A stretch of 64,000 nucleotides of DNA, taken from contig REDL01000064.1 of the NCBI GenBank assembly GCA_007693505.1, forward strand, positions 124,001 through 188,000, given 5' to 3'. The notes under the pieces were generated by a model, which had not been told where the DNA came from, did no database searches, and worked only from the letters and a program-made list of their open reading frames with translations. Of this stretch, positions 6,947-64,000 are shown one piece after another. The DNA comes from Desulfovibrionales bacterium. Its GTDB lineage: Bacteria; Desulfobacterota; Desulfovibrionia; Desulfovibrionales; Desulfonatronaceae. The translations under genes were made by a program, and so were the position numbers. Each line of letters begins with the position of its first letter. Position 1 is the first letter of the stretch.

Positions 6947-7075
6947 GGTCACTGCAAAAAGTTCCTTTTCCGCGAAAACGTGTGATGTGACGTTGCTCAA
7001 CACCTTGGAAAGACTGGATTCCGGCTTTCGCGGGAATGACGAATTTCAAGGTTTTGCGACTTTCTGCAGTAACAT
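6947..7075 (-). repeat. Family A MITE-like element, copy 1 (inverted)
   Basis: A 129-bp element has ends GGTCACTGCA and TGCAGTAACAT, which are imperfect terminal inverted repeats. The core carries the hairpin-forming CCGGCTTTCGCGGGAATGAC stretch. The flanks hold TCCCTGG at 6939-6945 and 7077-7083, likely traces of a target duplication. It is the reverse complement of the copies at 8014 and 48255 with few changes. Confidence 0.85.
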
Positions 7076-7331
7076 CTCCCTGGGCTATTTCAGGGCTTCC
7101 GACTTCTTGATCGCATGCCTGTACCCTGGAGACTTGATTGCTGGCAAGTATTTTTGCAGGTTTTACCGTTTATGCAGGATGCAATGTCCATGTTCCATAT
7201 TTATGAGTGATTGATCGAATATGGCTGTGAACGGGGCTGCAGCATTGGAGCCGTTTTGGTGATGTGCACTCAATAACTGAATGAGCATGGTGAAGCATTA
7301 TGGATTTCGCTAGTAATGCGCGAGGTAGTGC

Positions 7332-7359
7332 TTGACTTGGTTGGTTTTTTTGTTATGAG
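7332..7359 (+). promoter_or_regulatory. Candidate sigma70 promoter for the MucR-like gene
   Basis: TTGACT (7332-7337) and TATGAG (7354-7359) are separated by 16 bp in an AT-rich stretch 47 bp before the start codon. The match is fair, not strong. Confidence 0.4.
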
Positions 7360-7405
7360 TTTCTCTTTGAGACCGCGATTCATATTTTTTTAAAGGAGAT
7401 GCACA

Positions 7406-7822: not shown

Positions 7823-7848
7823 TCTGAGTTTCGGCTTCACATACGTGA

Positions 7849-7888
7849 GCAAAAGAAAGCCCTCCAGCAATGGAGGGCTTTCTTTTGC
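7849..7888 (+). terminator. Rho-independent type hairpin after the MucR-like gene
   Basis: An exact 18-bp stem (GCAAAAGAAAGCCCTCCA) with a GCAA loop begins 26 bp after the stop codon. The 3' arm contains CTTTCTTTT. It would work in either direction. Confidence 0.85.
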
Positions 7889-8013
7889 GGCTTCTGGTGA
7901 CCCATCGCGGCAATGGATTGGTCCAGTCAGGGGGCGGTACAGTGGAGGGTGAATCTTGGTGTTGTTGTGTTTCGCTCCGCCCTGTCACCAGTACTGTTTT
8001 TCCTTCATTGCAG

Positions 8014-8143
8014 ATGTTACTGCAGAAAGTCGCAAAACCTTGAAATTCGTCATTCCGGCGAAAGCCGGAATCCAGTCTTTCCAAGGTGTTGAGCAAAATC
8101 ACATCACACGTTTTCGCAGGAAAAGGGATTTTTTGCAGTGACC
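8014..8143 (+). repeat. Family A MITE-like element, copy 2
   Basis: A 130-bp element starts ATGTTACTGCAGAAAG and ends TTTTTTGCAGTGACC. It is flanked by an exact 9-bp direct repeat, TCATTGCAG (8005-8013 and 8144-8152), as expected of a target duplication. It differs from copy 3 at 48255 at only a few bases. Confidence 0.9.
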
Positions 8144-8325
8144 TCATTGCAGTCTGGTTGAATGTACTCCGGCAGTCCTCCTTCGTTGCCCATCAGGGGG
8201 AGGGAAGCCGCACTGCTCTGGGGATGTGGACAGGATTTTTTCCTCTCAAATAAGCTATAATAATTTTAGATTGATAGGCTGGAGAGCGGTAACTGCTCAA
8301 TCACCCGGGGCAGGCAGACGCCGGA

Positions 8326-8404
8326 TTCAAACTCTCACGTATGAATAAATCCGCTTCGACCGTGATTTTTTTGCTCCTTGCACTTGGGATTTTTGAACGG
8401 ACTG
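8326..8404. repeat. Family D dispersed repeat, copy 2
   Basis: TTCAAACTCTCACGTATGAA, CCGCTTCGAC, CTTGCACTTGG and TTTTTGAACGGACTG follow in the same order and spacing as at 1885. GGAGTTTTTCAAC follows the right end, as a similar AACTTTTTCAAC does in copy 1. Confidence 0.75.
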
Positions 8405-8663
8405 GTGAGCAGGAGTTTTTCAACGCTCAGCTACACAAACCCGTAGCGATGCAGGATGCCCTGGAGTTTGAGAACAAATTCGCCCCTGGTACGGAGAGCG
8501 GCTGATGTTGCGATCAACACCGGAAAAAACTATGAAGGCGCTAAGAAGCGCCTCGGCAGAGCCCCATGGCCCATGTACCCTGACTGCCCAGGGCGCATGA
8601 CGCCAATTGCCCATTCCACAAGTGGTGAAAACCAAAAATGATGCGCCAGAAAAACGGGATTCC

Positions 8664-9155
8664 ATGAGCACGGCAAACATAACCAAGAATTTTTCCAATG
8701 CGGAACAAGCGGCCTTGCGACTTCTCCAGGCTGATATCCCTGATACGGAGCGGCCGTATCAGGAAATAGCCGAGCAGACAGGCCTTACGGAAACGGCTGT
8801 TCTGCGGTTGCTGCAAGATCTCAAAGAGCAGGGTGTGGTCCGGCGTTTCGGTGCGACCTTGCGCCACCAGCAGGCGGGATATGGCGCCAATGCCATGGTC
8901 GCCTGGTTCGTTGAACAGGATCGGGATCTGGACGAAGTTGGGAAAATAATGGCCCAGCGTCCGGAAATCACCCACTGCTATCAACGGGTGAACTGTTATG
9001 CCTGGCCCTACAACCTCTACACCATGGTCCACGCCCGGAGCCGCGAGGAATGTATGGACGTGGTGGAGCAACTGGCCCGGATCGCTCGAGTTCCCCAGTA
9101 CGATATCCTGTTCAGCCGCAAGGAGTTGAAGAAGACCTCCATGGCCTATTTCTAG
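8664..9155 (+). CDS. ahbB: Siroheme decarboxylase subunit, AhbB type
   Basis: The 163-residue protein is an AsnC/Lrp-fold protein without the usual regulator role. It has an N-terminal winged-helix part (EIAEQTGLTETAVLRLLQDL), then VVRRFGATLRHQQAGYGANA, CYQRVNCYAWPYNLYTMVHA and a C-terminus ELKKTSMAYF, all typical of AhbB/NirL-type subunits. With AhbA it removes two acetate carboxyls from siroheme, giving didecarboxysiroheme, an early step of the siroheme-dependent haem pathway of sulfate reducers and archaea. The ATG at 8664 is chosen; a TTG at 8607 would add 19 residues of unlike composition. hemL follows 48 bp downstream, so tetrapyrrole synthesis is the shared theme. No ahbA, ahbC or ahbD is in the window. 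Confidence 0.85.
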   Translation: MSTANITKNFSNAEQAALRLLQADIPDTERPYQEIAEQTGLTETAVLRLLQDLKEQGVVRRFGATLRHQQAGYGANAMVAWFVEQDRDLDEVGKIMAQRPEITHCYQRVNCYAWPYNLYTMVHARSREECMDVVEQLARIARVPQYDILFSRKELKKTSMAYF

Positions 9156-9203
9156 CCGCGGCTTTCCGAGCATACGAACCTGTAGCGTATTACGAGGAGT
9201 ACC

Positions 9204-10472
9204 ATGTCTGATTCGAAAGCATTGTTCGCGCAGGCCCAGGAAGTGATTCCGGGCGGAGTGAACAGTCCGGTGCGGGCCTGTCTCAGCGTCCAGAGCGATC
9301 CCCTATTTATCAGCAGGGCGCGGGGTTCGCGGATGTGGACCGTGGAAGGGCAGGAACTGATTGACTACGTCATGTCCTGGGGGCCGATGCTACTGGGGCA
9401 TTCCCACGCCGCGGTGGTCGAGGCCGTGCATGAGGCCGTGGACCAGGGCGCCAGTTTCGGGGCTCCCTGTCCGGCAGAGGTGGAACTGGCGGATTTGCTC
9501 GTCAAGGCCCTACCCGGTGTGGACATGGTCCGCATGGTCAATTCCGGAACCGAGGCGACCATGAGCGCCCTGCGACTGGCCCGCGGCTACACGGGACGCA
9601 ACAAGGTGGTCAAGTTCGTGGGCTGCTATCACGGCCACAGCGACGCCTTCCTGGCCAGCGCCGGTTCCGGGGTCGCCACCCTGTCCATCCCCGGCACTCC
9701 GGGAGTTCCCGAGGCCGTGGTCGCGGATACGTTGCTGGCCCCCTACAACGATCTGGACGCCGTGGAGGCGCTTTTTCGGGCCCATGGGGACGAAATCGCC
9801 GCAGTGATTGTCGAGCCGGTGGCCGGAAACATGGGCATGGTCCTGCCCCAGCCCGGCTTTCTGCCCACCCTGCGCGTTCTGACCGAGCGCTCTGGTGCGC
9901 TTTTGATTTTCGATGAGGTGATCACCGGCTTCCGTCTGGCGTACGGCGGGGCACAGAACATTTTCGGGGTTGTTCCGGACCTGACCTGTCTGGGCAAGAT
10001 CATCGGCGGCGGATTTCCGGTGGGCGCCTATGGCGGTCGCCGGGAGATCATGTCCCGCATTGCTCCCTGTGGCGACGTCTACCAGGCTGGAACCCTTTCC
10101 GGAAACCCGGTGGCCATGGCTGCCGGGGTGGCTACCCTCAAGGAACTGGCCAAGTCCGACTATATGGATCTGACCATTCGGACCAAGGAACTGGCTATGG
10201 AATTGAAAAGCATCCTGGAAGAACGCGGAGTTTCCGTCCAGCTCAACTGCATGGCTTCAATGTTCACTCTGTTTTTCGCCCCAGACCCGGTCACGGACTT
10301 CGCGTCCGCGGCCAAGGCCGATGCCGTGACCTACGCCTCTTTCTTCCGGCAGATGCGCGACGCCGGCATTGCCTTCGCGCCCTCGGGATATGAGTGTGCC
10401 TTCACCTCGTTCGCACACACCTCAGAGGATTTTGAGCAGACCCTGGATGCCTGCCGGACCGTCCACTTCTAG
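9204..10472 (+). CDS. hemL: Glutamate-1-semialdehyde 2,1-aminomutase
   Basis: The 422-residue PLP enzyme has the standard HemL features: [11 protein letters not shown] near the start, [45 protein letters not shown] (PLP-contacting Asp) and [17 protein letters not shown] with the Schiff-base Lys. It makes 5-aminolevulinate from glutamate-1-semialdehyde in the cytosol, the entry to all tetrapyrroles. GAGGAG precedes the ATG. It sits between ahbB and the cobalamin genes cbiG and cbiH. A 15-bp stem-loop begins 24 bp after its stop. Confidence 0.97.
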
Positions 10473-48390: not shown

Positions 48391-48423
48391 AAAAAAAGCA
48401 CGGATGCGAGCATCCGTGCTTTT
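48391..48423 (-). terminator. Terminator of the SRP RNA gene
   Basis: On the minus strand AAAAGCACGGATG pairs exactly with CATCCGTGCTTTT around a 4-base loop, followed by a T-run. The right direct repeat of the family A copy overlaps this T-run. Confidence 0.85.
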
Positions 48424-48512
48424 AAGGAAGCCAGGCACCCACAAGCAACTGTTACCGCTGCTCCCTCTCGGGCCTGACGGGGTTGGCAGCGCTTATGCCA
48501 CCCGGCTTCCTT
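48424..48512 (-). ncRNA. ffs: Signal recognition particle RNA (small, 4.5S type)
   Basis: On the minus strand the core GTCAGGCCCGAGAGGGAGCA, followed by GCGGTAACA, matches the SRP RNA domain IV motif (GTCAGGTCCGGAAGGAAGCAGC...). The ends AAGGAAGCCGGG and CCTGGCTTCCTT close the outer stem, giving about 89 nt. A terminator follows immediately. It binds Ffh for cotranslational targeting of membrane and secreted proteins. Exact ends are inferred from the stem. Confidence 0.9.
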
Positions 48513-48797
48513 CTCCGATTCAATCCGCAAGCAAATCTGGATTCGCCGTGATTGCGCTTGAAGCAACGCGAACGTCCAATCGTTTTGTTTAGCAAATGGG
48601 TGCTGCCCTGTCCACAGTTTGATGCTCCAGCTGTATATCCTGCCAGATCAATTTGATAGCTCTGGCTGAGAAAACAAAGAATTGACCCTAAAAGAAACCC
48701 GGCTTAGGGTGCCGTTTTTACTTATTTCAGTACAGGTTTGAAAACGGTTTCCTTTAGCAGTTTCAGGTGGTAACGTTATTTTTTTGGAGGCTATGCC
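48513..48797. other. Spacer between ffs and putA
   Basis: Divergent promoters for ffs (minus) and putA (plus) are expected here. CCCTAA and TTAGGG form a small inverted repeat near 48684-48707. No gene was seen. Confidence 0.5.
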
Positions 48798-51700: not shown

Positions 51701-51842
51701 CGGCTTCAAGATGTCCGGTGTGGGTTCCAAGGCTGGTGGGCCGGACTATCTGATCCAGTTTCTGGATCCGCGAGTGGTCACCGAAAACACCATGCGCCGC
51801 GGCTTTGCCCCCATTGCCGGCGATGACGAGTGGGTGGGGTAG
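48798..51842 (+). CDS. putA: Bifunctional proline dehydrogenase/P5C dehydrogenase
   Basis: The 1014-residue protein has a proline dehydrogenase barrel (about 70-450; LNVSIKPSALYSQAKAVD, RLVKGAYWDQETI, FQVLYGMAEPVRKGL) and an aldehyde dehydrogenase domain (about 490-1000; APWNFPFAISMGM, VIAFTGSVEVGLRI, IAEMGGKNAIIIDDDADLDE, GQKCSACSRVIVLD with the catalytic Cys). It oxidises proline to glutamate via P5C, giving electrons to FAD and NAD. There is no N-terminal DNA-binding domain, so it is not a self-regulator. TTGGAGG is 7 bases before the ATG. The ACT protein starts 4 bp after the stop. Confidence 0.96.
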   Translation: MHDVDFEARIVTRGRQFFGSIQGEAPSVFNKGFWTGKVMDWAMRNEDFKVQLFRFVDVLPYLNTSESLQRHIEEYFSGQGSGDIPAVLKWGAEKSGGGLFGSFAAKAMGKIIRSNIEGMARQFIIGQNTKEAVASLQKIRKDGFAFTVDLLGEATVSEQEAQAYMDGYMELLDVLAKVQSSWKPLTSPGGASPDLDWGHTPRLNVSIKPSALYSQAKAVDVEDTVQGILSRLRPIYAKVKELGGALCIDMESLKFKEATLELFKRLRAEPEFRDYPHLSIVLQSYLRCTDEDLKDLIDWSKAQNLPIGIRLVKGAYWDQETIIAVQNGWPVPVWTRKPESDAAFERHARMILEQHKLIYFQCGSHNIRSIAMVMETAKDLGVAPERYEFQVLYGMAEPVRKGLKNVADRVRLYCPYGELLPGMAYLVRRLLENTANESFLKQSFADQADMDRLLENPLTTLERDKAGSVSPQTAMPGTSTGKPLGVSAFKNMSLVDFTVPEARGAFPEAIAAVRGQKGKNWPLFIGGKDVPTQDLIASYNPADPDEILGQVCQAGREEVDLALDAARKALPGWRDTFPEERAKFLFKAADVCRRRVFELSAWQVLEVGKQWDQAYNDVAEAVDFLEYYAREMIRLGVPRRMGNAPGEVNELFYQPKGIAAVIAPWNFPFAISMGMVSAAIVTGNPVIYKPSSLSSLVGYGLVEVFREIGLPEGVFNYCPGRSRVMGDYLVEHPDVSVIAFTGSVEVGLRIIEKAAKVHPGQDQCKRVIAEMGGKNAIIIDDDADLDEAVPQVLYSAFGFQGQKCSACSRVIVLDAIYERFMTRLREAALSVKIGPSEHPANYMGPVVDLGQQKNVQAAIETASQEGRIVVQREVPEKGCFVPLTIVEGIRPEHRTAQEEIFGPVLAVMRAKDFTEALDMANNSRFALTGGVFSRSPKRLEQAKREFRVGNLYLNRNNTGALVYRQPFGGFKMSGVGSKAGGPDYLIQFLDPRVVTENTMRRGFAPIAGDDEWVG

Positions 51843-51846
51843 GCAA

Positions 51847-52416
51847 ATGTCAAATCATGCTGAAAAAATGATGATTGCCGTGTTTGGCCAGGACCGTCCG
51901 GGGATTGTGGCCCGGATTTCCGGTTTGCTGGCCGACATGGGCTGCAATCTTGAAGATGCCACGCAGACTATTTTGCATGGTCGATTTGCCGGAATGTTCG
52001 TGATCCAGCCGGTTCTGGAGAGCCTGGACCGTGAACGGATTCTGCTCGCCCTGGAAGAAGGTTTTCAGGGTGAGGAGCTGAATTTTTGGGTTTCGTCCTT
52101 GGAAGAAGCAAGTCCGACGAAACCGGCCCAGGAGGCGACGGATCCGTTTGTCATCACCACCATCGGCCCGGACCAACTCGGGTTGGTGGCCGGCGTGACC
52201 GGGGTTCTGGCGCAGTTCGGCGTGAATATCACGGCGTTGCGGGCCAATGTGCGAACCGAGGATGTTTCCCAGTGGGTGATGATCTACGAGGTGGACGTGC
52301 CAAAAGCCCTGGACCGAGCCCGGTTCCGGGAGGCGCTCTACGGCAAGGCCCAGGAACTCGATCAGCGCCTCAGCCTTCAGCACCGCGATATTTTTGAGAC
52401 GGTCCATCGAGTGTGA
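51847..52416 (+). CDS. Two-ACT-domain regulator (GcvR-like)
   Basis: The 189-residue protein has two ACT domains: MMIAVFGQDRPGIVARISGL (about 8-27) and FVITTIGPDQLGLVAGVTGV (about 98-118), each followed by strands. This is the glycine-cleavage repressor GcvR layout. ACT domains bind amino acids. The gene starts 4 bp after putA, so both are made together, suggesting that proline or glycine is sensed. The ATG at 51847 is chosen; a start at 51805 would overlap putA. UPF0210 follows, and ACT/UPF0210 gene pairs are common in bacteria. Confidence 0.88.
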   Translation: MSNHAEKMMIAVFGQDRPGIVARISGLLADMGCNLEDATQTILHGRFAGMFVIQPVLESLDRERILLALEEGFQGEELNFWVSSLEEASPTKPAQEATDPFVITTIGPDQLGLVAGVTGVLAQFGVNITALRANVRTEDVSQWVMIYEVDVPKALDRARFREALYGKAQELDQRLSLQHRDIFETVHRV

Positions 52417-52774
52417 TGCCCCAGCTCCCCGTCTCCGTGGATGTATGCGAAAACATGTCTCGTGAACTGTGGACGTGCACGCGGACGATCACGTGTAACT
52501 GAGTGGGGAAAAAGTCCTGATCCACAGTCCGTTCAAAAATCCCAAGTGCAGGGAGCAAAAAAAAGCAAGTTTGAAGCGTCGATATTCATACGTGAGACTT
52601 TGAATCCGGCACCCACCGAAGGTGTGGGATGCTTTGAGATTTGCAAAGTTTGACAGTCCATGTGGGTGCCGGACAGCGACGCAGCAATTGGGAGTTTTTC
52701 AACGGACTGGTAAGGGGACGGGACGGTCAGGCGGACACCACGTGGTTTGCCAATACTTTAGGAGATACCAAGAC
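52417..52774. other. Gap between the ACT gene and the UPF0210 gene
   Basis: The 358-bp gap holds family D copy 4 (52528-52605) and a further GGAGTTTTTCAACGGACTGG fragment at 52690. No gene was seen. A promoter for the UPF0210 gene could be here, but no clear boxes are visible. Confidence 0.5.
52528..52605. repeat. Family D dispersed repeat, copy 4 (inverted)
   Basis: GTCCGTTCAAAAATCCCAAG, TGCAGGGAGCAAAAA, GAAGCGTCGA and ATTCATACGTGAGA are the reverse complement of the order seen at 1885 and 8326. Confidence 0.75.
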
Positions 52775-54148
52775 ATGCTGACGGAAAAAGAAGTTTTGAC
52801 CACCTTGGAAATGCTGCGCAACGAACACCTGGACGTACGCACGGTGACCCTGGGGTTGAGCCTGTTCGACCTGGCCACCCACGATGCCGCCCGGTTTCAG
52901 GATCGCCTGCTGTCCCGGATCACCGGCATGGCCGCTTCGCTGGTGGATGTCTGCGACGAGGTGGGGGATATTTACGGGATTCCGGTGGTCAACAAGCGCA
53001 TTTCCGTCAGTCCCATGGCCGTGGTCGGTGCGCCGTTTTCCTCCCGGGAGCTGGTCCAGACGGCCATGACCCTGGACCAGGCGGCCCAGGAGGTGGGCGT
53101 GGACTTTATCGGCGGGTTCAGCGCACTGGTGGAGAAAGGGCTGGCCCGGGGCGATCTGAGCCTGATCGAGGCGGTTCCCGACGCCCTGACCGCCACGTCC
53201 AGGCTCTGCGCCTCCTTCAACGTGGCCACCACCGCTGCGGGGATCAACATGGACGCGGTGCTTCTTTTGGCCAAGACCATCAAGGCCGCGGCGGCCATGA
53301 CCGCGGACCGCGACGGCTTGGCCTGCGCCAAGCTGGGGGTCTTCGCGAACATCCCCCAGGACGTGCCCTTCATGGCCGGGGCCTATTTGGGCGTGGGCGA
53401 ACCCAATGCCGTGATCAACGTGGGCGTCAGCGGGCCGGGCGTGGTCAAGCGAGCCTTGGAGCGGGCCCTGGAGGCCGATGACCATCTGGCCTTGGACGAG
53501 ATTTCCGAAGTCATCAAGCGCACGGCCTTCAAGGTCACCCGGATCGGTGAGCTCATCGGCCGGGAGGTGGCCAAGCGCCTGAATGTTCCCTTTGGCGTGG
53601 TGGACCTCTCTCTCGCGCCCACACCCAACGTGGGCGATTCGGTTGGAGAGATTTTTCAGGTGCTGGGGCTGGCCCATATCGGCGCGCCCGGCTCCACTGC
53701 GGCTCTGGCCATGCTCAATGACGCGGTGAAAAAGGGCGGAGCCTTTGCCAGCTCCTCGGTGGGCGGATTCAGCGGGGCGTTCATCCCGGTCAGCGAAGAC
53801 CTGAACATAGCCGAGGCCGCGGCCCAGGGCCATCTGACCCTGCCCAAGCTGGAAGCCCTGACCAGCGTCTGTTCCGTGGGCCTGGACATGGTCGCCCTGC
53901 CCGGTGACACCTCAGCAGAGACCCTGGCCGCGATCATTGCCGACGAGATGGCCATTGGCATGATCAACCGCAAGACCACCGCGGCCCGGCTGATTCCGGT
54001 CCCCGGCAAGCAGGCCGGAGAAAAAGCCTTTTTCGGCGGCCTGCTGGGCGAGGCCGTGATCATCCCCGTTCCTGGGAACGGCGGCTCGGAGCGATTCATC
54101 AACCTGGGCGGTCGGGTTCCCGCGCCGCTGCAGAGCCTGGGGAATTGA
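52775..54148 (+). CDS. UPF0210 (DUF711, PFL-like) protein
   Basis: The 457-residue protein has MLTEKEVLTTLEMLRNEHLD at the start, RTVTLGLSLFDL, NKRISVSPMAVVGAP, FIGGFSALVEKG, GINMDAVLLLAKTIK and FGVVDLSLAPTPNVGDSVGEI, which fit the UPF0210 family. It has a PFL-like barrel fold but no glycyl radical motif, so the catalytic role is unknown. AGGAGA is about 10 bases before the ATG. Pairing with an ACT-domain protein is common and suggests amino acid dependent control. Confidence 0.9.
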   Translation: MLTEKEVLTTLEMLRNEHLDVRTVTLGLSLFDLATHDAARFQDRLLSRITGMAASLVDVCDEVGDIYGIPVVNKRISVSPMAVVGAPFSSRELVQTAMTLDQAAQEVGVDFIGGFSALVEKGLARGDLSLIEAVPDALTATSRLCASFNVATTAAGINMDAVLLLAKTIKAAAAMTADRDGLACAKLGVFANIPQDVPFMAGAYLGVGEPNAVINVGVSGPGVVKRALERALEADDHLALDEISEVIKRTAFKVTRIGELIGREVAKRLNVPFGVVDLSLAPTPNVGDSVGEIFQVLGLAHIGAPGSTAALAMLNDAVKKGGAFASSSVGGFSGAFIPVSEDLNIAEAAAQGHLTLPKLEALTSVCSVGLDMVALPGDTSAETLAAIIADEMAIGMINRKTTAARLIPVPGKQAGEKAFFGGLLGEAVIIPVPGNGGSERFINLGGRVPAPLQSLGN

Positions 54149-54441: not shown

Positions 54442-57153
54442 TCAGGAGGCGTTCTTTCCTCTACAAAACCCCAGCCATGTCGCGGCGATCTTTTCGCAAA
54501 ACACCGTTGAGTCAGCCAGGAGCAGAGGAAGGTGCCTTGTCAGATCCGCGAAGTATGCGTCTGTGAACTGGTCTTTATAGCGGCGGTAGGCTTCCAGGCT
54601 TCCCTGGCGAAATGATGTGAGCCAATCGAAGAGCATCTGAGAATCCGCTTCCAGGTGGAATTGGAATCCATAGGAGGCCTGGCCGATGCGGAAACACTGG
54701 TTGGAGCAGGCCTCCCCGCGGACAAGCAGGGTTGCTGTCGGCGGCAGGGTGAACGAGTCTTCGTGAAATTCCATGAGCGGAGGCAAGGGCAGGGCCATGC
54801 TGATAAGTGGGTCGTCGTTGGCCTCCGAGGTTGGTCGGTGCTGGATGAACCCGAACTCCAGCTTGTCCAGCGTATAGTTGGTTCCGCCATAAGCCCGGGC
54901 CAGGAGCTGGGCACCCAGACAGATGCCGGCCACGGGTTTGAGCTGGGCATCAAAGGAGCGCATCAACTCCATGAGCCGGGATGCATGCGGCACGGCTGTA
55001 TCATCAAAGGCATGTTGCGGTCCGCCCAAAACCACAAGCCCGGCAAAGTCCCCTGGAACGTTCGGCAGTTCCTGGCCTTCCAGGGGATGTAGAGTGGTCA
55101 GCTCCGCACCGTGGCGCTGGAGTGTTTTGGTGAAGTTGCCGCCGGGAGCTTGCGGGCTGTGCTGGATCACCAGGATGCGAACGTCCTGAACGTCCTCTGC
55201 CGGCCACGGGGCGATGGCGACCCGTGTCTCGTAATAGGGGCAGCCTTCCCCGACCTGGCTTTCCATGTCGCGGGTCAACCGGTTCAAACCATGTCCACCC
55301 TTGGCCCATCCGCCCCGTTCGGCCAGAAGAACATCCTCGCGCATCGTGGGATCGACACTGAGGCGGGCCTTGACCGCCCCGTATGGGCTGAAGACCCTGA
55401 CCAGCTGGTTTTCACTGAGCCCCAACGCTGCAGTTTGAAGGGCGGAGAGGACAACCCGCGGGAGCGGTTCATGGTCGGCCAGGGTCCGTTCCGAGCAGAT
55501 GGCGTCATGCGGGGCCACGGTCAGCAATGCATACGGGTACTCCGGGCTCTCCAGGGACGGATCGGGATTGTCCAACCGTTCCAGGAAGCGGAATTTCCCG
55601 GACGGAGTGGGAAAGCGGCGGTCCACGTAGGGAACCATAGGCGCGTCGATCCGGAAGGGGCGGCTTTGCATGGCGTGCATGTCCCCGCCGTGGTCTCGGC
55701 CCTGTTCTCTAAGAGGTGCACAAACGGTTTCCAGCCAATCCTCCAGCTCCCGTCGATAGGCGGATGCAAACGGAAACCGCCGGGCCAGTTCCTGAAACAT
55801 CCAAAATTCCGACCGGCACTCTCCCAGGGGTTCGATGGTCTTGTTCACCGCGCCGACATAATTATGGCCGTAGCTGGCCATGACATCCTGTTCTTCCAAG
55901 AACGTAGTCGCGGGGAGAAAGACATGGGCGTGGTCCGCGGTATCGTCCAGAAAATGACCACTGTAGACCACGAATTCCGTTCGGCGAAAGGCCTGGCTGA
56001 CCTTGTTGCTATTTGGGGCCATGCAAACGGGGTTGGAAGCGGTGACGAAGATCATCCGAATTTTCGGGTTCGTCGCGTTCAGGATTTCCTCCCCGATCCG
56101 GGGCATAAGCAGGGTCCGTTTGGGCGGGTGTAGTTCGTCTCCCCAGTAACGCTGGTCATAGGGGCCGTATTCCTCGAAGCCCTGACTGACTCCGCCTCCT
56201 GGAACACCCAGGTTGCCGCTGATTGCTCCCAGGGCATCGATGGCCTGGATGGACTGATGGGCCAGGGCGTGGCGGTGCAGACCCCAGCCGAGAAGTATGG
56301 CGCTGGGCTTGGCCGTGATCAGGGTGACGGCCAGCAGTCGAGCCTGGGCCTGGGAAACACCCGCTCGCCGGCAGAGATCGTCCAAGCTGAATCGTCCCAC
56401 CAAATCCAGAAAGGCTTGCACCCCCTCGGCGTGTCGCTCCAGGAATGGTTTGTCCTCGGCTCCGGCAGCCAGGATCAGCTTGGCCGCGGCCAGGGCCAGA
56501 AACACATCGCAGCCAGGGCGAACGGCTATGTGGTGATCCGCCAGGGCCGCGGAACGGGTCCGGGCCGGGTCGATCAGCAGGATCGGTCTGCCCTGCCGTC
56601 GCAATTCCCGGATGATCGGGACCAGGCTGACATTGGTGGAAACCGGATTACGGCCCCAGAGAATCATGGATCGGCTGTTGGCATGGTCCAGAGGATCATG
56701 GGAGACCCGATCGCCGACGCTGAGATTCTGGGCTGCCTGCCCGGTGCCGCCGCAAAGGGAACCGCGCAGGGTGGTCACGCCGCCCAGCAGGTTGAAGAAA
56801 TAGCGGTTGAGCAGCTTCAAGGCCGTGCGCTCCCCGTATCCCTGGTAGTAAAGAATGGCCTCGGGACCGGATTCGAGGATTACCGCCTTGATTCGTTCCG
56901 CCACCAGGTCCAGGGCCGCATCCCAGGACACGATCTCCCAGCGCCCGTCGCGCCGGATCATCGGGGCCGTGACCCGTTCCGGGCTGTAAATCCTCCGGAT
57001 ATACCGAGCCGTTTTGGAACAGGCCGTTCCCCTGGTCAGCGGGTGATCGGGATTCCCGCTCAACCGGACCAAACGCCCGTTCTCCACCGTGGCCAAAAGC
57101 CCGCAGGTGCTGGGGCAGTCCCGGGTGCAGGTTGTTGGGATGATTTTTTTCAT
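54442..57153 (-). CDS. Molybdopterin oxidoreductase fused to a class I glutamine amidotransferase domain
   Basis: The 903-residue protein starts with a [4Fe-4S] site (Cys9, Cys13, Cys17 and Cys45). DMSO-reductase-family domains follow (about 55-540), with a Cys at the likely molybdenum position (Cys134 in LRGSLCGGTG), GRNPVSTNVS and TASNPVCMAPN, and a molybdopterin dinucleotide-binding domain at about 540-650. Residues 658-903 form a second enzyme: a GMP-synthase-like class I glutamine amidotransferase, with VVLGGPQHAF, nucleophile Cys745 in AGICLGAQLLA, and His833/Glu835 in YGFQFHLEAD. No Tat or Sec signal is seen, so it is cytosolic. The reading frame is unbroken across the join. Substrates are unknown. 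A radical SAM gene starts 130 bp upstream. Confidence 0.9.
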   Translation of the reverse strand: MKKIIPTTCTRDCPSTCGLLATVENGRLVRLSGNPDHPLTRGTACSKTARYIRRIYSPERVTAPMIRRDGRWEIVSWDAALDLVAERIKAVILESGPEAILYYQGYGERTALKLLNRYFFNLLGGVTTLRGSLCGGTGQAAQNLSVGDRVSHDPLDHANSRSMILWGRNPVSTNVSLVPIIRELRRQGRPILLIDPARTRSAALADHHIAVRPGCDVFLALAAAKLILAAGAEDKPFLERHAEGVQAFLDLVGRFSLDDLCRRAGVSQAQARLLAVTLITAKPSAILLGWGLHRHALAHQSIQAIDALGAISGNLGVPGGGVSQGFEEYGPYDQRYWGDELHPPKRTLLMPRIGEEILNATNPKIRMIFVTASNPVCMAPNSNKVSQAFRRTEFVVYSGHFLDDTADHAHVFLPATTFLEEQDVMASYGHNYVGAVNKTIEPLGECRSEFWMFQELARRFPFASAYRRELEDWLETVCAPLREQGRDHGGDMHAMQSRPFRIDAPMVPYVDRRFPTPSGKFRFLERLDNPDPSLESPEYPYALLTVAPHDAICSERTLADHEPLPRVVLSALQTAALGLSENQLVRVFSPYGAVKARLSVDPTMREDVLLAERGGWAKGGHGLNRLTRDMESQVGEGCPYYETRVAIAPWPAEDVQDVRILVIQHSPQAPGGNFTKTLQRHGAELTTLHPLEGQELPNVPGDFAGLVVLGGPQHAFDDTAVPHASRLMELMRSFDAQLKPVAGICLGAQLLARAYGGTNYTLDKLEFGFIQHRPTSEANDDPLISMALPLPPLMEFHEDSFTLPPTATLLVRGEACSNQCFRIGQASYGFQFHLEADSQMLFDWLTSFRQGSLEAYRRYKDQFTDAYFADLTRHLPLLLADSTVFCEKIAATWLGFCRGKNAS

Positions 57154-57283: not shown

Positions 57284-58279
57284 TCAGCGGCAAGAGTCCC
57301 TGTTCGTACAAGGACCGACTATGCGTGGCAATATCGCCGGTTGTGCGGCTGGGGCGTGCCTGCTTTGCAGTGCCAGGCAGCCTCCCTGACAGCGGAGCAT
57401 GAAGTCCTTGCAGGCCAAGCACTCCGAGGTGACGCTTTCATGGCGCACCGGGCGGACAAGCTTTGCGAAATGGCCCAGTACTGAGTTTCTGTCCGCAAAG
57501 ACCGTGATGTCATCGATTTTCATGTCGTACATGGGCAGGCAGTATGATGCGGAAAGGTCTGGGTGGACATCGACAGACGGTTGGCAGATTCCACTGAACT
57601 TCGAGGAGACCCGTTCAAGATAGCGGCGGTCTTTCTCGTTGAGGTCGCAAAGCCGGACGCTACAGTCCAGCCCGGTCCGAACATCGCGTGATTCACAGGC
57701 TTTCACGAAGCCGACGATATGCGAGATGACGGACTTAGCGTCCCTGAGCTGATAGTGATTGTTGCTTGCGCTACCGCTGGGCCGCGAAATATCGTATCGG
57801 ACGAAACGAACGCCGTAATCGTCAATGGCTTCAAGAAGATAGTCGTAGTCGAGATTCGTTGGGGAGAAGTTTTTGGAAAACGTCACCCTGCCCCCCAGAG
57901 CCGTCAGGTCGCGCAGGTTCGCCTTGATCCGCGAAAGCTGAAGGTCGGAATAATTCCGGGGATGATTGTAGTTGACGACGATGTTGGAGGCATGTTCAGC
58001 GAGAGTCTTCGCGATATGTTCCGCGAATAGGCAATTGGTGAAGACGACAATGTTCAATCCCCGGAGCTTGGTTTCCTTGATCATGGTTTCCAGTTCCGGA
58101 TGGAGAGTTGGTTCCCCGCCGATGAACGCGATGGTCTGGATGCCGGCCTTTTTCGACCACCCCAGGAGCCTGTCGAAGTCGTCGGCGGAGATGTCGTGAG
58201 GATGGCGGCTCCGCGTTTCCCGCGCAAAGCAATAGTCGCAGGAAATGTTGCACCGATATGTTGTGAATACCTTGATCAT
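57284..58279 (-). CDS. Radical SAM protein with SPASM-like C-terminus
   Basis: The 331-residue protein (from the ATG at 58279) has the radical SAM cluster motif C10-x3-C14-x2-C17 in TTYRCNISCDYCFARE, the SAM-binding IAFIGGEPTLHPE, and a Cys-rich C-terminus (CQPSVDVHPDLSASYCLP and CLACKDFMLRCQGGC) that fits one or two auxiliary [4Fe-4S] clusters of SPASM/twitch type. SPASM enzymes modify peptides, proteins or sugars, or mature other enzymes. It starts 67 bp after the ATPase gene of the importer and is followed by the molybdoenzyme fusion. The frame could begin upstream at 58336, but the conserved start is at 58279. Confidence 0.9.
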   Translation of the reverse strand: MIKVFTTYRCNISCDYCFARETRSRHPHDISADDFDRLLGWSKKAGIQTIAFIGGEPTLHPELETMIKETKLRGLNIVVFTNCLFAEHIAKTLAEHASNIVVNYNHPRNYSDLQLSRIKANLRDLTALGGRVTFSKNFSPTNLDYDYLLEAIDDYGVRFVRYDISRPSGSASNNHYQLRDAKSVISHIVGFVKACESRDVRTGLDCSVRLCDLNEKDRRYLERVSSKFSGICQPSVDVHPDLSASYCLPMYDMKIDDITVFADRNSVLGHFAKLVRPVRHESVTSECLACKDFMLRCQGGCLALQSRHAPAAQPAILPRIVGPCTNRDSCR

Positions 58280-58346
58280 TTGGAAAAGCTCTTTGGTTCT
58301 TTTTCCCGTATCCGGCCCGCGATATCGCGTTGTCAACGTTCCTCCG

Positions 58347-59465
58347 CTACCCTTTCAGACTTCGGCCAGTGATTCCATCAAAAAAGAGCATTTTTTCCGG
58401 ATGATCGACCTTGACGGCCAGCGTGGTCCCAATTTCGGCTCCTTGAAAGTCCGCGGCGGCGACAAGAATTCGGGCTTCTCCGAAATCATTGCGGACGGTC
58501 AGAACGGATCGCGGTCCCAGGGGTTCGATGTCGACCAATTCTCCCTGTGACGTAGCCGAGGAGGGCGTCGTGACGGAGAGGTTCTCTGGGCGCAGGCCGA
58601 CGTCGAATCCATTCGAGGCCGCGGCAAGGGCGGTGGACAAGTTTGGAGGCAAAGGCAGGCGGAATCCGAAGAACTCCAGCTTGGCGGGTTCGCCCGGCGA
58701 AATACGACCCTGGAGGATATTGATCAGAGGCGAGCCAATGAATTCGGCCGTCAGACGATGTGCTGGACGGTCATAGAGAGTCTGAGGTGAATCGACCTGA
58801 ACGACTTCTCCGGACTGAAGCATGATCACCGTATCCGCCACGGCCAGAGCCTCATGGTAGTCCGGAGTGGCCAACAGGAAGGTTTTCCCGGACTCTTTCT
58901 GGAGCCTGCGTAGCTCGGAACGCAGTTCGATCCGGAGTTTGGCGTCAAGGCTGGACAGGGGCTCATCCAGCAGAAAAATGGCTGGATTCCTGATCAGAGC
59001 CCGGCCAAGGGCGATACGCTGTTTCTCTCCGCCGCTCATGGTTCCCGGAAGACGGTCGAGAATGCGACCGATATGGAGTGTTTCCGCGATCCCTAGGACT
59101 CGCTCCCGGATTTCGGTTTCAGGAACACCCTGGATCAACAAGGGGTTGGCGATGTTCAGATATCCGCTCTTGTTCGGGTAAAGGGCCAGGTTGTCGAACA
59201 TCATGGCCACATCGCGGTCTTTCGGCTCCAAGCCGCCGACATCGCGTCCATTGATCAAAACGGAACCGGATGTCGGTTCATCCAGGCCGGAGATAATCCG
59301 CAACGTCGTCGTCTTTCCCGCTCCGGCCGCGCCAAGGAGCACCGTCAGCGAGTTCCGGGGAACGGTAAACGCGACGTCCTGCAAGGCTGTCGCCTTGCCG
59401 AAGCTTTTCCGGATGTTGCGGATTTCCAGACACGGCTCGGAAGCGGTTTCAGTTTGCCGGTTCAC
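58347..59465 (-). CDS. ABC importer ATPase 2 (CUT1/GlpS type), degenerate Q- and H-loops
   Basis: The 372-residue protein has Walker A LLGAAGAGKTTTLRI, signature MSGGEKQRIALGRAL and Walker B IFLLDEPLSSLD, and an OB-type C-terminal region (about 240-372) as in MalK-like ATPases. Two conserved loops are altered: the Q-loop reads MMFDNLALYP (Asp for Gln) and the H-loop reads ATPDYHEAL (Pro for His). It starts at a GTG at 59465 with GGTGG 7 bases upstream, overlapping the other ATPase gene by 17 bp. The other ATPase carries the reciprocal defect, so the pair should form one active and one degenerate ATP site. Confidence 0.92.
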   Translation of the reverse strand: MNRQTETASEPCLEIRNIRKSFGKATALQDVAFTVPRNSLTVLLGAAGAGKTTTLRIISGLDEPTSGSVLINGRDVGGLEPKDRDVAMMFDNLALYPNKSGYLNIANPLLIQGVPETEIRERVLGIAETLHIGRILDRLPGTMSGGEKQRIALGRALIRNPAIFLLDEPLSSLDAKLRIELRSELRRLQKESGKTFLLATPDYHEALAVADTVIMLQSGEVVQVDSPQTLYDRPAHRLTAEFIGSPLINILQGRISPGEPAKLEFFGFRLPLPPNLSTALAAASNGFDVGLRPENLSVTTPSSATSQGELVDIEPLGPRSVLTVRNDFGEARILVAAADFQGAEIGTTLAVKVDHPEKMLFFDGITGRSLKG

Positions 59466-60582
59466 AATGATCCACCTTTGTTTCGTGAAGATCGATTCGA
59501 AGGTTCGAATCCGCGTCGAAAATGTGAAGAGTATTGAGGTCAAAGGCAATGTCCACGGCTTCTTCCGTCCTCGGCGGCAATACGGCGGCAGAGTCAAGGA
59601 TATGGACGGCCTGCCCACCTATCTCGACGGTGATCACTCTTTCCGACCCCATTGTTTCCACCCGGGAAACAAGACCAGAAGCGTCTCCAGAACCGGGAGA
59701 AACAAGGCGCAGGCTTTCCGGGCCCACTCCCAGGATCACCCTGCCGGAGGGTATGGACACGAGGTTCAAGGTTGATGACAGGTTGAGGGAAAAAACACCA
59801 TGCTCAAAATACAGTTGGTCCGCATGGTGCTTGAAGCGGCCCTGAAAGAGGTTCATGGGTGGTGAGCCGAGAAAGCCGGCGACAAAAACATGCCCCGGGC
59901 GTCGGCAGATTTCCGTGGTGAGTTCCACTTGAACGATTTTTCCGGCATTCATAACAGCGATCTTGTTCGCCAGGGACAGGGCCTCGATCTGGTCGTGGGT
60001 GACGTAGATGATAGTCAGGCCGATCTCCTGCTGCAAACGGCGCAGTTCCCTGCGCATGGCCAGCCGGGATTCCGCTTCGAGGTTGGAAAGCGGCTCGTCG
60101 AGTAGCAGAATGTCCGGTTTCGTGACCAGGGTCCGCCCGATGGCCACGCGTTGCAGTTCCGAGCCGCCCAACTCTCTGGCCGGTATTTTCAGCCGTTCCG
60201 TGATTCCTAGGAGTTCTGCGACTTCAAAGACCGCCTTGCTGATTTCCCGACGCGGCTTTTTTCTTATTTCCAGGCCGAAGGCGAGATTTTTGTAGACTGT
60301 CATGGAAGTGAAGACCGCGTAATCCTGGAAAACCAGCCCGATGTTTCGTTTCCCGGCCGGAATTTTCACGACGGATTGTCCATCGACATGAATGTCTCCG
60401 GATGTCGGCTGTTCAAGGCCGACGATCATGTTCAGAGTCGTGGATTTCCCGCACCCGGACGAGCCGAGCAAGGCGATAGTTTCCCCAGCGGAGATGGTCA
60501 GGTCAATATCATCCACCGCGACAACCGCCCCGTTGTCATATTCTTTTCGCAGGGCGACGAGTTCCAGTTTCGGCTTGCTCAT
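59449..60582 (-). CDS. ABC importer ATPase 1 (CUT1/GlpT type), degenerate signature motif
   Basis: The 377-residue protein has Walker A LLGSSGCGKSTTLNM, Q-loop GLVFQDYAVF, Walker B ILLLDEPLSNLE and H-loop YVTHDQIEAL intact, but the signature reads ARELGGSELQRVAIG instead of LSGGQ. The ATG at 60582 overlaps the permease stop (ATGA). The following ATPase gene overlaps its end. With ATPase 2 it powers the importer at the inner membrane. The C-terminal part (about 240-377) is MalK-like. Confidence 0.93.
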   Translation of the reverse strand: MSKPKLELVALRKEYDNGAVVAVDDIDLTISAGETIALLGSSGCGKSTTLNMIVGLEQPTSGDIHVDGQSVVKIPAGKRNIGLVFQDYAVFTSMTVYKNLAFGLEIRKKPRREISKAVFEVAELLGITERLKIPARELGGSELQRVAIGRTLVTKPDILLLDEPLSNLEAESRLAMRRELRRLQQEIGLTIIYVTHDQIEALSLANKIAVMNAGKIVQVELTTEICRRPGHVFVAGFLGSPPMNLFQGRFKHHADQLYFEHGVFSLNLSSTLNLVSIPSGRVILGVGPESLRLVSPGSGDASGLVSRVETMGSERVITVEIGGQAVHILDSAAVLPPRTEEAVDIAFDLNTLHIFDADSNLRIDLHETKVDHCEPAN

Positions 60583-61442
60583 TGCTTGATCGCTCCGAAG
60601 GTCATGCCGCGTGCCAAGTGAGACTGGATAAAGTAGCCGACGACAATCAGGGGCAGCATGGCCAGGACGGCCAAAGCCGCCTGGACGCCGTAGAGTGTGC
60701 CGGCGGTGGCCGTGACGTACTTGGCTAGCTGCACGGGAATGGTGTTGATGTTGCTGTAGGACAGTACAAGGGCGAAGAGAAATTCGGACCAGTTCAGAAT
60801 GAAGATGAACATTGTCGTCGCAAACAGGCCGCCTTTTATCAAAGGTATGGTCACGGTGAGGTGTGCTGCCAGTCGCGACTTGCCGTCGATCATGGCCGCC
60901 TCCTCGATCTCTCTGGGAAGATCGTCCACGAAGCTTTTCAGCATCCACGTTGAAAACGGCAAGGTGATGGCCACATAGATGGCAATCAGCCCGGTGTACG
61001 TGTCCGTAAGGCCGATATTGGAAAAAATGATCACGAAGGGCACGGCGATGGCGGCTGGTATAAACATTCTTCCGGAAAGGATAACCAGAGGAGTCCACTT
61101 GCTGTTTTTTGCGTAGCGGGAGATGCCGATGGCCGAAAACAAGCCGATGGAGACCGAAAGAAGGGTCGCCGTCACCGAGGCGATGATCGAGCCGATGACG
61201 GCGCTTGTCGCCGCCTGACTGACCCCTCCGACCCCGTAAGCGCGAATCGCGTCCGGATCGAACAGGGTCTTGAAGTTGATCAGTGTGGGCTCCGAAGGGA
61301 TCCAGATCGCTGGGGAGGCGTTCCAGTCCGTCGGTGGCTTGATGGCCGTCATGACGATCCAGAAAATCGGAAAAAGGGTCAGGATCAGGGCGACCAGCAG
61401 AATAATCGCCTGAAGCCGGGTAAGTTTCTTGGGTTCCGTCAT
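60579..61442 (-). CDS. ABC importer permease 2 (MalG type)
   Basis: The 287-residue inner-membrane protein has about six membrane segments and the EAA loop EIEEAAMIDGKSRLAAHLTV, followed by IPLIKGGLF, which contacts the ATPase. It is the MalG/CUT1-type second permease. The ATG overlaps the stop of the first permease (ATGA), and its stop overlaps the ATPase 1 start (ATGA). Confidence 0.93.
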   Translation of the reverse strand: MTEPKKLTRLQAIILLVALILTLFPIFWIVMTAIKPPTDWNASPAIWIPSEPTLINFKTLFDPDAIRAYGVGGVSQAATSAVIGSIIASVTATLLSVSIGLFSAIGISRYAKNSKWTPLVILSGRMFIPAAIAVPFVIIFSNIGLTDTYTGLIAIYVAITLPFSTWMLKSFVDDLPREIEEAAMIDGKSRLAAHLTVTIPLIKGGLFATTMFIFILNWSEFLFALVLSYSNINTIPVQLAKYVTATAGTLYGVQAALAVLAMLPLIVVGYFIQSHLARGMTFGAIKQ

Positions 61443-62404
61443 CGATTGCCCTCCAGAAGTCGATCCCGCACCGGCAAGAGCATGAGGTGGATCAGCGTCA
61501 ATGAGCCGATCAGGACGAGAAAGGCAGCCGCCGCAGCGTATGCCAGCTGGAAATCGTTGAAAGCGAGTTTGTAGATGTAGAGGCTGATGGTTTCTGTTGA
61601 AGAACCCGGTCCGCCCCTGGTTAGCATGAACACTTCGTCGAAAAGCTTGATCACTTCCATGGCCCGGATGATGAAAGCCACGATGATCACGGGCTTGAGC
61701 ATGGGCATGACCACTCTCCAGAAGACCTGGCCAGGGCTTGCTCCGAGAATGATCGCCGCTCGAACCGGATTTTCGGGGATGGATTTCAGTCCAGAGAGCA
61801 AGATCAGGAAAAACAGCGGGGTCCAGTGCCAGACCTCGGTGATAATCACCGCGGCCACGGCATGGTTCGGGCTGCGAAACCACTGGACCGCTGCTTCGGC
61901 GCCGAAGATGATCTCCAGGATTTGGTTGATTGGGCCGTTGGATTGAAAAAGCATCCAGAATATGTAGCCGACCACCACGGGGAGGACCATCATTGGGGTC
62001 AAAAAGGCCGAGAACAGGAGCGATTTTCCCCGAAACTCGCGAAGAAACAGAACGGCGAGACCAAGTCCCAGGGAAAATTCCAACACCAGGCAGATGCCGG
62101 AAATCAACAATGTCCGGACAACAGCATGGACAAAGCGGTTGTCCCAGAACAACAGCTCGCTGTAATTCTCAAAGCCGATCAGATTGGCCTCCAGCAAGGT
62201 CCCGCGTGTCGGGGTCCAATTGGTGAAGCTCATGTACAGCGCGACCAGCAAGGGGATGACGAGGACGAATAGCGAGACCAGCAGTCCAGGCACGGTCATG
62301 TACCGGGAAATGCCCCGCCCGCTTTTTTTCCCGCGCGCCTCGGGCGTGGGGACAGCGTTTTGCTGGTCGATTGTGGTGGTCTTTGAACTCGCTTCAGTCT
62401 TCAT
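61439..62404 (-). CDS. ABC importer permease 1 (MalF type)
   Basis: The 321-residue inner-membrane protein has a polar N-terminus (about 1-35), about six membrane segments, and the EAA loop ENPVRAAIILGASPGQVFWRVV. It is the CUT1 first permease. The ATG at 62404 has AGGA 9 bases upstream; a GTG 6 bp upstream is too close to the site. It overlaps permease 2 by 4 bp. A strong hairpin lies in the spacer before it. Confidence 0.93.
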   Translation of the reverse strand: MKTEASSKTTTIDQQNAVPTPEARGKKSGRGISRYMTVPGLLVSLFVLVIPLLVALYMSFTNWTPTRGTLLEANLIGFENYSELLFWDNRFVHAVVRTLLISGICLVLEFSLGLGLAVLFLREFRGKSLLFSAFLTPMMVLPVVVGYIFWMLFQSNGPINQILEIIFGAEAAVQWFRSPNHAVAAVIITEVWHWTPLFFLILLSGLKSIPENPVRAAIILGASPGQVFWRVVMPMLKPVIIVAFIIRAMEVIKLFDEVFMLTRGGPGSSTETISLYIYKLAFNDFQLAYAAAAAFLVLIGSLTLIHLMLLPVRDRLLEGNR

Positions 62405-62484
62405 TCTCACGCTTCCTCTGTTCTATTCGGCACGGGAGCGAACCATTTTCGGAAATATCGGGTTTTCCAGGATCGGGTTTTCCG

Positions 62485-62542: not shown

Positions 62543-64000
62543 TTACCACTTGTCCGCGCCGCTGGCCTTGCGAATGGGTTCAGCCAGGTTTTTGGCCAGA
62601 GCCAGCCAGGACTTGAGCACTTTTTCCCTCCCGGTCCGCCGTGTGATCCGTTCAAAGGCTCTGGCCGCGTCGTCCAGGGCTTGCTTGGGGCTCTTTGAAC
62701 CGGTCATGCAGGCATTGACCTCTCTGTCCAGAGCGTCCTGGTACTCAAATCCGCCTGGAAGGCAGAAGTCCGGAACGGTGTTGACCATGTTGTCGTAAAG
62801 GATCTGGAGGTACTCGAGGGAGTAGGTGTCGATGAGCCGCTGGGTAGGAGCGAGCATGTGATTTCTCCGGTAAGGGTCCGAGTATCCGCCAAGGTAGGGG
62901 ATGGCGTCTGCGGAGATAGTCGGGGAAGTCATCCACTGGGCGTAGGCATAGGCCAACTCGGGGTTGGCCGAATACCTGGAGACCGCATATCCATATCCCC
63001 AGCAGAACAGACCCGCGTACAGCAGCGTTCCGTCGGCCAGAGTGTCCGCAGGCATGACCGTGGCCCTGATGTTTCCAGTTGTGGCCGGACCAGTGGACGG
63101 GGCCTTGGAGTATTTGTACCCGGACGGCCAAACAATGTTCATGAATCCTTCACCCCGGCCAAAGGCGTTGTAGTTCGAGGACCAGGTGAAGCTGAAGGCG
63201 TCGGGGTGCAGGAACTCATTCATGGCCAGCATGTCTTCCAGAGCAGCGACGCCTTCATCGGAATTGAAGGTCGGATTCAGCTCGTTGTCGAAATAGAGCC
63301 GACCCTTGGAAATGAGCCGCTGCATGAACATCCATTTGACGTAGTACGGGGATCTGTACTCCAGGCTGCCGTAGAAGCCTTCCGATGGGTTGTGCATGAA
63401 TTTTGCCAGGTTATAGTACTCCTTCCAGGTGTGCGGCACGTCCAGCTTGTATCCGTGGGCGTCCTCGAAGGCCTTGGCCTTGTTGGGATCGTCGAGATGA
63501 TCGGAGCGGCAGAGCAGTGTGATCTGATCTCCGTCGTTCAGCAGTCCGGCGACACGACCGTTGTAGAGCTGGGCATGGTGGCTGGCGGGAAAGACGACCC
63601 CCCACTCCGGATGGAACAGTTCCGGGTCATATTGTTCGGTCCATTCGGTCAGATCGTAGATTACGCCAGCGTCGATCCAATCGGGGTAGGACATGGCGGT
63701 GGGCATCATCACATCGTAGGTTCCGGTCCTTGCGACCGCTTCCTGCATGCCCTTGGTATGCACAACTTCATCCGGTTCCTCGATAAACTGTAACGTAATG
63801 CCCAGTTCGTCTCTCCACTTGTCCACATAGGGAGTCATGTTGCCGATGGAGCCCGTGGGGATGAGCAGGGTCAAGGTTTTCTTTTCGGCCTTGGCCGCGG
63901 CGGCCTTGGCCAGTTCCCAGGCCCGCTCCTCGGCGGCGTGGATTGCGGCGAACGCCTTGGTAGCGCCCAGGGGGGACAAACTGACGGCATTGGCCACGAA
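62543..64000 (-). CDS. ABC importer periplasmic substrate-binding protein, 5' end outside window
   Basis: The frame is open at the right edge, so the N-terminus is missing; 485 codons are seen. The first residues (VANAVSLSPLGATKAFA) look like the end of a signal peptide. LTLLIPTGSIGNMTPYVDKW, TGTYDVMMPTAMSYPDWIDAG and GVIYDLTEW fit CUT1-type extracellular solute-binding proteins (family 1). It would bring a polyol, sugar or glycerol-type substrate to the permeases. It heads the importer genes on this strand; the start and any regulator lie outside. The substrate is not read from the sequence. Confidence 0.9.
   Translation of the reverse strand, partial: FVANAVSLSPLGATKAFAAIHAAEERAWELAKAAAAKAEKKTLTLLIPTGSIGNMTPYVDKWRDELGITLQFIEEPDEVVHTKGMQEAVARTGTYDVMMPTAMSYPDWIDAGVIYDLTEWTEQYDPELFHPEWGVVFPASHHAQLYNGRVAGLLNDGDQITLLCRSDHLDDPNKAKAFEDAHGYKLDVPHTWKEYYNLAKFMHNPSEGFYGSLEYRSPYYVKWMFMQRLISKGRLYFDNELNPTFNSDEGVAALEDMLAMNEFLHPDAFSFTWSSNYNAFGRGEGFMNIVWPSGYKYSKAPSTGPATTGNIRATVMPADTLADGTLLYAGLFCWGYGYAVSRYSANPELAYAYAQWMTSPTISADAIPYLGGYSDPYRRNHMLAPTQRLIDTYSLEYLQILYDNMVNTVPDFCLPGGFEYQDALDREVNACMTGSKSPKQALDDAARAFERITRRTGREKVLKSWLALAKNLAEPIRKASGADKW

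Follow-up and report, generated by a model that had tools for sequence, protein, structure and literature searches.

We report a conserved single-chain fusion of a molybdenum- or tungsten-bisMGD oxidoreductase with a class I glutamine amidotransferase (GATase), encoded in a 64,000-nt stretch (hereafter the window) of a 3.94-Mb genome of the Desulfovibrionales. Genome comparisons establish that the fusion exists, that its cofactor residues and its triad are conserved, that it belongs to a conserved operon and that the operon's ligase has lost its ammonium site. By analogy with described pathways we propose, with a probability of roughly 0.55, that the fusion is a bifunctional enzyme of an O2-independent pathway for gamma-glutamylated amines, in which the Mo domain would oxidise the tagged amine and the GATase domain would release glutamate.

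Fusion gene and domain organization

The gene occupies the coordinates given in the initial annotation, which did not state the strand. It starts with an ATG at 57153 on the minus strand and its frame is open for 903 codons down to 54442. The following features were assigned.

54442..57153, minus strand: fusion gene, Mo/W-bisMGD oxidoreductase and class I GATase (903 aa; Pfam, AF2 model)
56983..57147, minus strand: [4Fe-4S] domain, residues 3-57, with Cys9, Cys13, Cys17 and Cys45 (Molybdop_Fe4S4, PF04879, E 1.2e-13)
55780..56976, minus strand: molybdopterin oxidoreductase core, residues 60-458 (PF00384, E 7.6e-44), with the Cys134 codon at 56752-56754
55234..55485, minus strand: molybdopterin dinucleotide-binding domain (Molydop_binding), residues 557-640 (PF01568, E 2.9e-12)
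54463..55185, minus strand: GATase domain, residues 657-897 (PF00117 above cut-off, separate AF2 model)
54919-54921, 54655-54657 and 54649-54651, minus strand: codons of the GATase triad Cys745, His833 and Glu835, respectively

The oxidoreductase part spans residues 3-640 and the GATase part about 657-897, the PF00117 match itself covering residues 700-838 (E 4.6e-10); all four Pfam domains exceed their curated cut-offs, and the AF2 model of the full-length chain has a pLDDT of 85.6 and a pTM of 0.87. The Pfam search thus agrees with the earlier claim that one chain holds a complete Mo-bisMGD oxidoreductase and a complete class I GATase domain, and the cluster cysteines, Cys134 and the triad residues are all found at the positions given for them. 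That no characterised enzyme of this layout was known also holds for the literature searched, in which the fusion layout is described nowhere.

Distribution and origin of the fusion

Among 348 genomes of the order, 43 have matches to the C-terminal part (46-100% identity) that lie within long open frames; contig ends truncate four of the copies, and 39 complete proteins from 39 genomes were aligned. A 44th genome (G273) carries the N-terminal part adjoining a contig end. The initial annotation would have given up the fusion if homologues were always two separate proteins, and had asked for the same join in other genomes: the join is kept in 38 further full-length relatives (53-91% identity), nine of them from single-contig genomes (G006, G048, G099, G275, G279, G282, G284, G285 and G291). 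An artefact of sequencing or assembly, or a frameshift joining two genes, was rejected on this conservation of the junction in independent relatives and has a negligible chance of being correct. From these alignments the fusion is, with practical certainty, a genuine and conserved protein family of Desulfovibrionales.

Within the order genomes searched the fusion is confined to one clade. Across 395 sampled genomes of the phylum, mostly from beyond the order, no fusion turned up outside the order, where the matches were unfused oxidoreductases of about 650 residues and at most 47% identity. A pattern scan of genome contigs likewise gave no fusion outside the order, its one match there being an oxidoreductase in a MAG labelled Geobacter (L043:4547-5420); this copy is broken into several pieces in more than one frame and may be a pseudogene or come from a misplaced contig.

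A tree built on the oxidoreductase domain groups every fused protein in a single clade (support 100/99). Five unfused proteins from genus g13 belong to the same clade and are nested within the fused ones (branches 95/95 and 97/95), the outgroups being unfused. The simplest reading of this topology is one fusion event followed by a single loss of the GATase domain in g13. The g13 proteins, 63-66% identical to the fusion, consist of the oxidoreductase half alone, and the five genes stop cleanly after residue 648, which is the domain boundary. An apparent remnant of the GATase past the stop in one genome (G060) was rejected, the extended match (2-724) being the antisense of a neighbouring gene. 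Stand-alone GATases with 46-51% identity to the fused domain occur in three genomes of the order (G079, G185 and G343; loci L128, L129 and L130) with no oxidoreductase adjoining, and may be either the source of the fusion or escapees from it; the remaining stand-alone GATases in the order are at most 36% identical.

The oxidoreductase domain

Cys9, Cys13, Cys17, Cys45 and Cys134 are invariant in all 39 complete fusions. The Fe4S4, molybdopterin and dinucleotide-binding domains, each above its Pfam cut-off, place this part of the chain in the DMSO reductase (Mo/W-bisMGD) family, and Cys134, which aligns with SeCys140 of E. coli formate dehydrogenase H (FDH-H), is the candidate protein ligand of Mo or W. 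FDH-H is also the closest structure to the full fusion model (1fdi, E 1.5e-43). The fusion shares with FDH-H and other Cys/SeCys-ligated members of the family the fold, the cofactor motifs and the cysteine at the SeCys140 position, but it differs in the attached GATase domain, in the position of FDH-H His141, which in the fusion is Gly135, a residue invariant among the aligned fusion proteins, and in its score against the best N-terminal NCBIfam model, formate dehydrogenase alpha (TIGR01591), with 235 bits against a cut-off of 666. Formate dehydrogenase activity was considered and rejected, the replacement of His141 by an invariant glycine making such activity unlikely. No Tat leader was found ahead of Cys9, which suggests that the enzyme is cytoplasmic.

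The amidotransferase domain

The Cys-His-Glu triad is intact in 36/39 complete fusions, and the triad together with the PF00117 match above cut-off assigns the domain to the class I GATase fold. Modelled alone, it reaches a pLDDT of 92.7 and a pTM of 0.92. Its best structural matches are 3m3p (Z 30.0) and DnfC (8khs, Z 29.9), then SMU.1228c and TM1158; these stand-alone GATases score Z 28-30, against 23.9 for Arabidopsis gamma-glutamyl peptidase 1, about 20-22 for GMP synthases, 19.4 for PuuD and 19 for SpuA, a ranking of folds that is no guide to function. A sequence profile orders the relatives similarly. The label "GMP-synthase-like" used in the initial annotation is therefore imprecise, the domain being nearest to stand-alone GATases and GMP synthases scoring clearly lower; no Pfam domain corresponding to the ATP pyrophosphatase (synthetase) domain of GMP synthase was found in the 903-aa chain. 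The best C-terminal NCBIfam models are stand-alone "glutamine amidotransferase" families, and these nearest family models lump glutaminases with gamma-glutamyl hydrolases. The model of the PuuD (C26) group, PF07722, scores 20.7 bits against a cut-off of 20.5, lower than PF00117, and a viral structure library gave GATase-fold matches only.

Functional hints come from the described relatives. Two GATases of the stand-alone group, sharing about 33% identity with the fused domain, adjoin ipuC, a P450, a ferredoxin and a reductase on plasmid pTC1, and hydrolysis of the gamma-glutamyl intermediate in the isopropylamine route encoded there has been attributed to an amidotransferase (PMC6776027). DnfC cleaves glutamine and its gamma-hydroxamate (PMC11440038), and NpaA2 and AtdA2 are GAT-like gamma-glutamyl hydrolases (PMC11335346). 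Since the nearest functionally described relatives cut gamma-glutamyl amides, the fused domain likely hydrolyses such amides rather than delivering ammonia.

The operon and its ligase

The initial annotation overlooked an operon of which the window holds the downstream part; the genes for the ligase, the C45 hydrolase and the solute-binding protein start just past 64000. Clustering of neighbouring genes gives the order glutamine synthetase (GS)-like ligase, C45 hydrolase, solute-binding protein, two permeases, two ATPases, radical SAM protein and fusion. Upstream from the fusion, the genes are the following.

57284..58336, minus strand: radical SAM protein (PF04055; CX3CX2C motif within YRCNISCDYC), the gene immediately preceding the fusion
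58347..59618, minus strand: ABC importer ATPase 2, UgpC/MalK-like (46-58% identical orthologues in the operon)
59449..60576, minus strand: ABC importer ATPase 1, UgpC/MalK-like (48-65% identical orthologues)
60579..61439, minus strand: ABC importer permease 2, GlcU/UgpE-like (PF00528)
61439..62410, minus strand: ABC importer permease 1, UgpA/GlcT-like (PF00528)
62543..64000, minus strand, leaving the window: ABC solute-binding protein, SBP_bac_1 (PF01547), complete at L060:2544-4112
L060:4159-5289, same strand as the operon: C45 autoproteolytic hydrolase (C45_proenzyme, 216.5 bits, cut-off 85)
L060:5338-6720, same strand as the operon: GS-like ligase (Gln-synt_C)

In numbering equivalent to that of the window, the C45 hydrolase and the ligase span about 64158-66719. 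Two of the mechanically called reading frames are longer than the genes they contain: that of ATPase 1 runs to 61098, its family match beginning at ORF residue 177 and its coding start lying near 60576, and that of permease 2 extends to 61883, residue 157 of the ORF being the first in the family match. Adjoining the ligase and divergent from it are genes for a sensor kinase and a response regulator of the sigma-54 type; a sigma-54 promoter, sought upstream of the ligase in view of this regulator, gave no convincing site. The operon contains no aldehyde dehydrogenase or electron-transfer subunit and, by gene order and annotation, no PuuB-type FAD oxidase with PuuC.

Orthologues of the ligase, with 72-82% identity, are present in 26 other genomes (27 of the 348 order genomes in total). 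In an alignment with GlnA and PuuA of E. coli, the ligase retains the metal and phosphate residues E129, E131, E212, E220, H269, R339, R344, E357 and R359 (Salmonella GS numbering), and it has Y, L, I and F at the ammonium-site positions D50, S53, Y179 and E327. The same substitution is found in all correctly extracted orthologues, one wrong-frame extraction (L167) having been left out of the comparison. E. coli PuuA has likewise lost the four residues, with P, V, C and Y in their place, and the naphthylamine ligase NpaA1 is an organic-amide synthetase that has lost conserved GS catalytic residues and does not use ammonium (PMC11335346). The genome also encodes a separate true GlnA, above its NCBIfam cut-off. 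With a GS fold, its metal and phosphate residues kept and its ammonium site lost, the operon protein has the features of a gamma-glutamyl organic amide synthetase and is predicted to be a gamma-glutamyl-amine ligase.

Association of the operon with the fusion

All 27 ligase genomes carry the fusion, 26 by the C-terminal search and G273 up to its contig end. Counted by the C-terminal search, 26 genomes have both, 1 the ligase only, 17 the fusion only and 304 neither (one-sided Fisher p 9e-27, kinship being ignored). Orthologues of the radical SAM protein (43-58% identity in 25 other genomes) occur in 26/27 ligase genomes, with one extra, truncated copy in G285; in every wide locus with both genes, the radical SAM gene and the fusion are on the same strand and between slightly overlapping and 250 bp apart. 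The 17 genomes with a fusion and no ligase imply that the Mo domain has some role outside the pathway or that these copies are relics.

The GATase domain appears to follow the operon. Its triad is intact in 24/24 complete fusions from operon genomes and broken in 3/15 of those lacking it (one-sided p 0.05), and GATase terminal branches are 1.77 times as long as those of the oxidoreductase with the operon and 2.54 times without it (one-sided p 0.026, kinship ignored). The highest ratio, 5.4, belongs to G285, which keeps only a truncated radical SAM gene beside the fusion, and genus g13 has neither the operon nor the GATase domain. These comparisons suggest that the GATase domain depends on the operon and decays without it, the statistics being weak and the observations, made in related genomes, not independent.

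Individual loci illustrate the turnover. At L218 (G285:C1:2076000-2086000) the truncated radical SAM gene (6775-7212, query residues 187-332) is followed by the fusion (7258-9963), the rest of the operon is gone and the GATase is the fastest-changing relative to the oxidoreductase, which looks like a recent operon deletion. In a close relative, G002, whose fusion is 91% identical, the fusion adjoins a trmFO-like gene (L044), whereas in the window genome (L060) roughly 13 kb, made up of the operon and its regulators, separates the two genes; the operon was apparently gained or lost at one site within the genus. Two operon-less genomes of the same genus (G004 and G006; L045 and L046) have upstream of the fusion, and convergent with it, a different ABC importer composed of a binding protein, two permeases and one ATPase.

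Comparison with known systems

The described routes of gamma-glutamylated-amine oxidation use O2-dependent oxidases (P450 or Rieske dioxygenase) or a flavin oxidase. The Ipu pathway of Paenarthrobacter aurescens TC1 (pTC1) combines in one cluster a GS-like ligase (ipuC), an oxidase of the tagged amine and stand-alone GATases (PMC6776027), but its oxidase is an O2-requiring P450, its hydrolase and oxidase are separate proteins, and it has no radical SAM or C45 gene. The aniline and 1-naphthylamine routes (AtdA1A2, NpaA1A2) share the pairing of a GS-like ligase lacking the ammonium-site residues with a GAT-like gamma-glutamyl hydrolase (PMC11335346), and differ in using separate proteins and an O2-requiring Rieske dioxygenase. 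In the E. coli Puu pathway the ligase PuuA lost the same four positions and the hydrolase PuuD has the class I GATase fold, although PuuD is a more distant GATase and the FAD oxidase PuuB and aldehyde dehydrogenase PuuC are without counterpart in the operon. The Dirammox system DnfABC offers in DnfC a near structural match that partners a redox enzyme; its components are unfused, and it is aerobic, with a diiron oxygenase and an ordinary glutamine synthetase (PMC11440038).

Proposed pathway and alternative interpretations

In the pathway that we propose, the ABC importer would take up an amine or amine conjugate, from which the C45 amidohydrolase may liberate the amine, and the GS-like ligase would couple the amine to glutamate at the gamma-carboxyl group. 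The Mo-bisMGD domain would then oxidise the tagged amine, by dehydrogenation or by hydroxylation with water-derived oxygen, electrons leaving via the [4Fe-4S] cluster of the fusion. The GATase domain (Cys745-His833-Glu835) would hydrolyse the gamma-glutamyl amide and return glutamate, and the radical SAM protein may catalyse an additional step or act in maturation. Both the chemistry at Mo and the sequence of steps are inferred: oxidation of a glutamylated amine at this site is proposed by analogy with the P450 step of the Ipu route and the dioxygenase step of the Npa route, and with the water-dependent hydroxylation known in other members of the superfamily, as in ethylbenzene dehydrogenase. 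It counts against the proposal that we know of no characterised amine oxidase among the Cys-ligated members of the DMSO reductase family, that the operon has no aldehyde dehydrogenase or electron-transfer subunit and that 17 genomes carry the fusion but not the ligase. A more specific version, in which the Mo (or W) site oxidises the gamma-glutamyl-bound amine independently of O2 and the product is channelled to the GATase cysteine, making this the first anaerobic N-glutamylation route, is put forward tentatively and is on the unlikely side.

Several other interpretations were weighed against this pathway. The initial annotation had offered either a coupling of ammonia release to a redox step or a repurposed hydrolase of a gamma-glutamyl compound, and the genomic context favours the hydrolase, given the ligase without an ammonium site and the GATase relatives that cut gamma-glutamyl amides. 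A true amidotransferase would hydrolyse glutamine and send ammonia through the protein to the Mo site, for amination of an oxidised carbon or for oxidation of the ammonia itself, as an anaerobic counterpart of DnfABC. Class I GATases normally supply a fused or bound partner domain, the triad is intact, the pTM of 0.87 suggests a fixed domain arrangement, and DnfC (Z 29.9), which hydrolyses both glutamine and the gamma-hydroxamate, partners a redox enzyme in ammonia oxidation (PMC11440038). However, the operon offers a gamma-glutamyl-amine ligase devoid of the ammonium site and not a supply of glutamine, and decay of the GATase where the ligase is absent is not predicted for a plain glutaminase, so that we consider ammonia delivery quite improbable.

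The two halves may instead be functionally independent, the join fixing only their stoichiometry or co-expression and the Mo substrate being unrelated to gamma-glutamyl compounds. The Mo half standing alone in g13 (63-66% identity) and the 17 genomes with the fusion and no operon fit such independence, but a fusion of single origin, kept across the clade with one loss seen and retained in every ligase genome, speaks against it and leaves it unlikely. A role of the GATase domain as a scaffold or sensor without catalysis is very improbable: the triad is broken in 3/39 proteins, yet it is intact in all 24 complete proteins from operon genomes.

If the proposed oxidation of glutamylated amines is correct, this fused, Mo-dependent version would show how strict anaerobes (sulfate reducers) can use the same glutamate-tagging trick, would extend the range of reactions of the Mo-bisMGD family by a new one and would identify a likely amine source of these bacteria. 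The amine accepted by the ligase would name the substrate of the pathway.

Other features of the window

Genes for an ACT-domain protein and then a DUF711 protein (508-aa ORF) at 51805-54148 are on the strand opposite to the operon and unrelated to it; the pair lies downstream of a 1014-aa ORF resembling a proline dehydrogenase/aldehyde dehydrogenase fusion. The window also encodes an RNA gene.

48419-48514, minus strand: bacterial small SRP RNA (Rfam RF00169)
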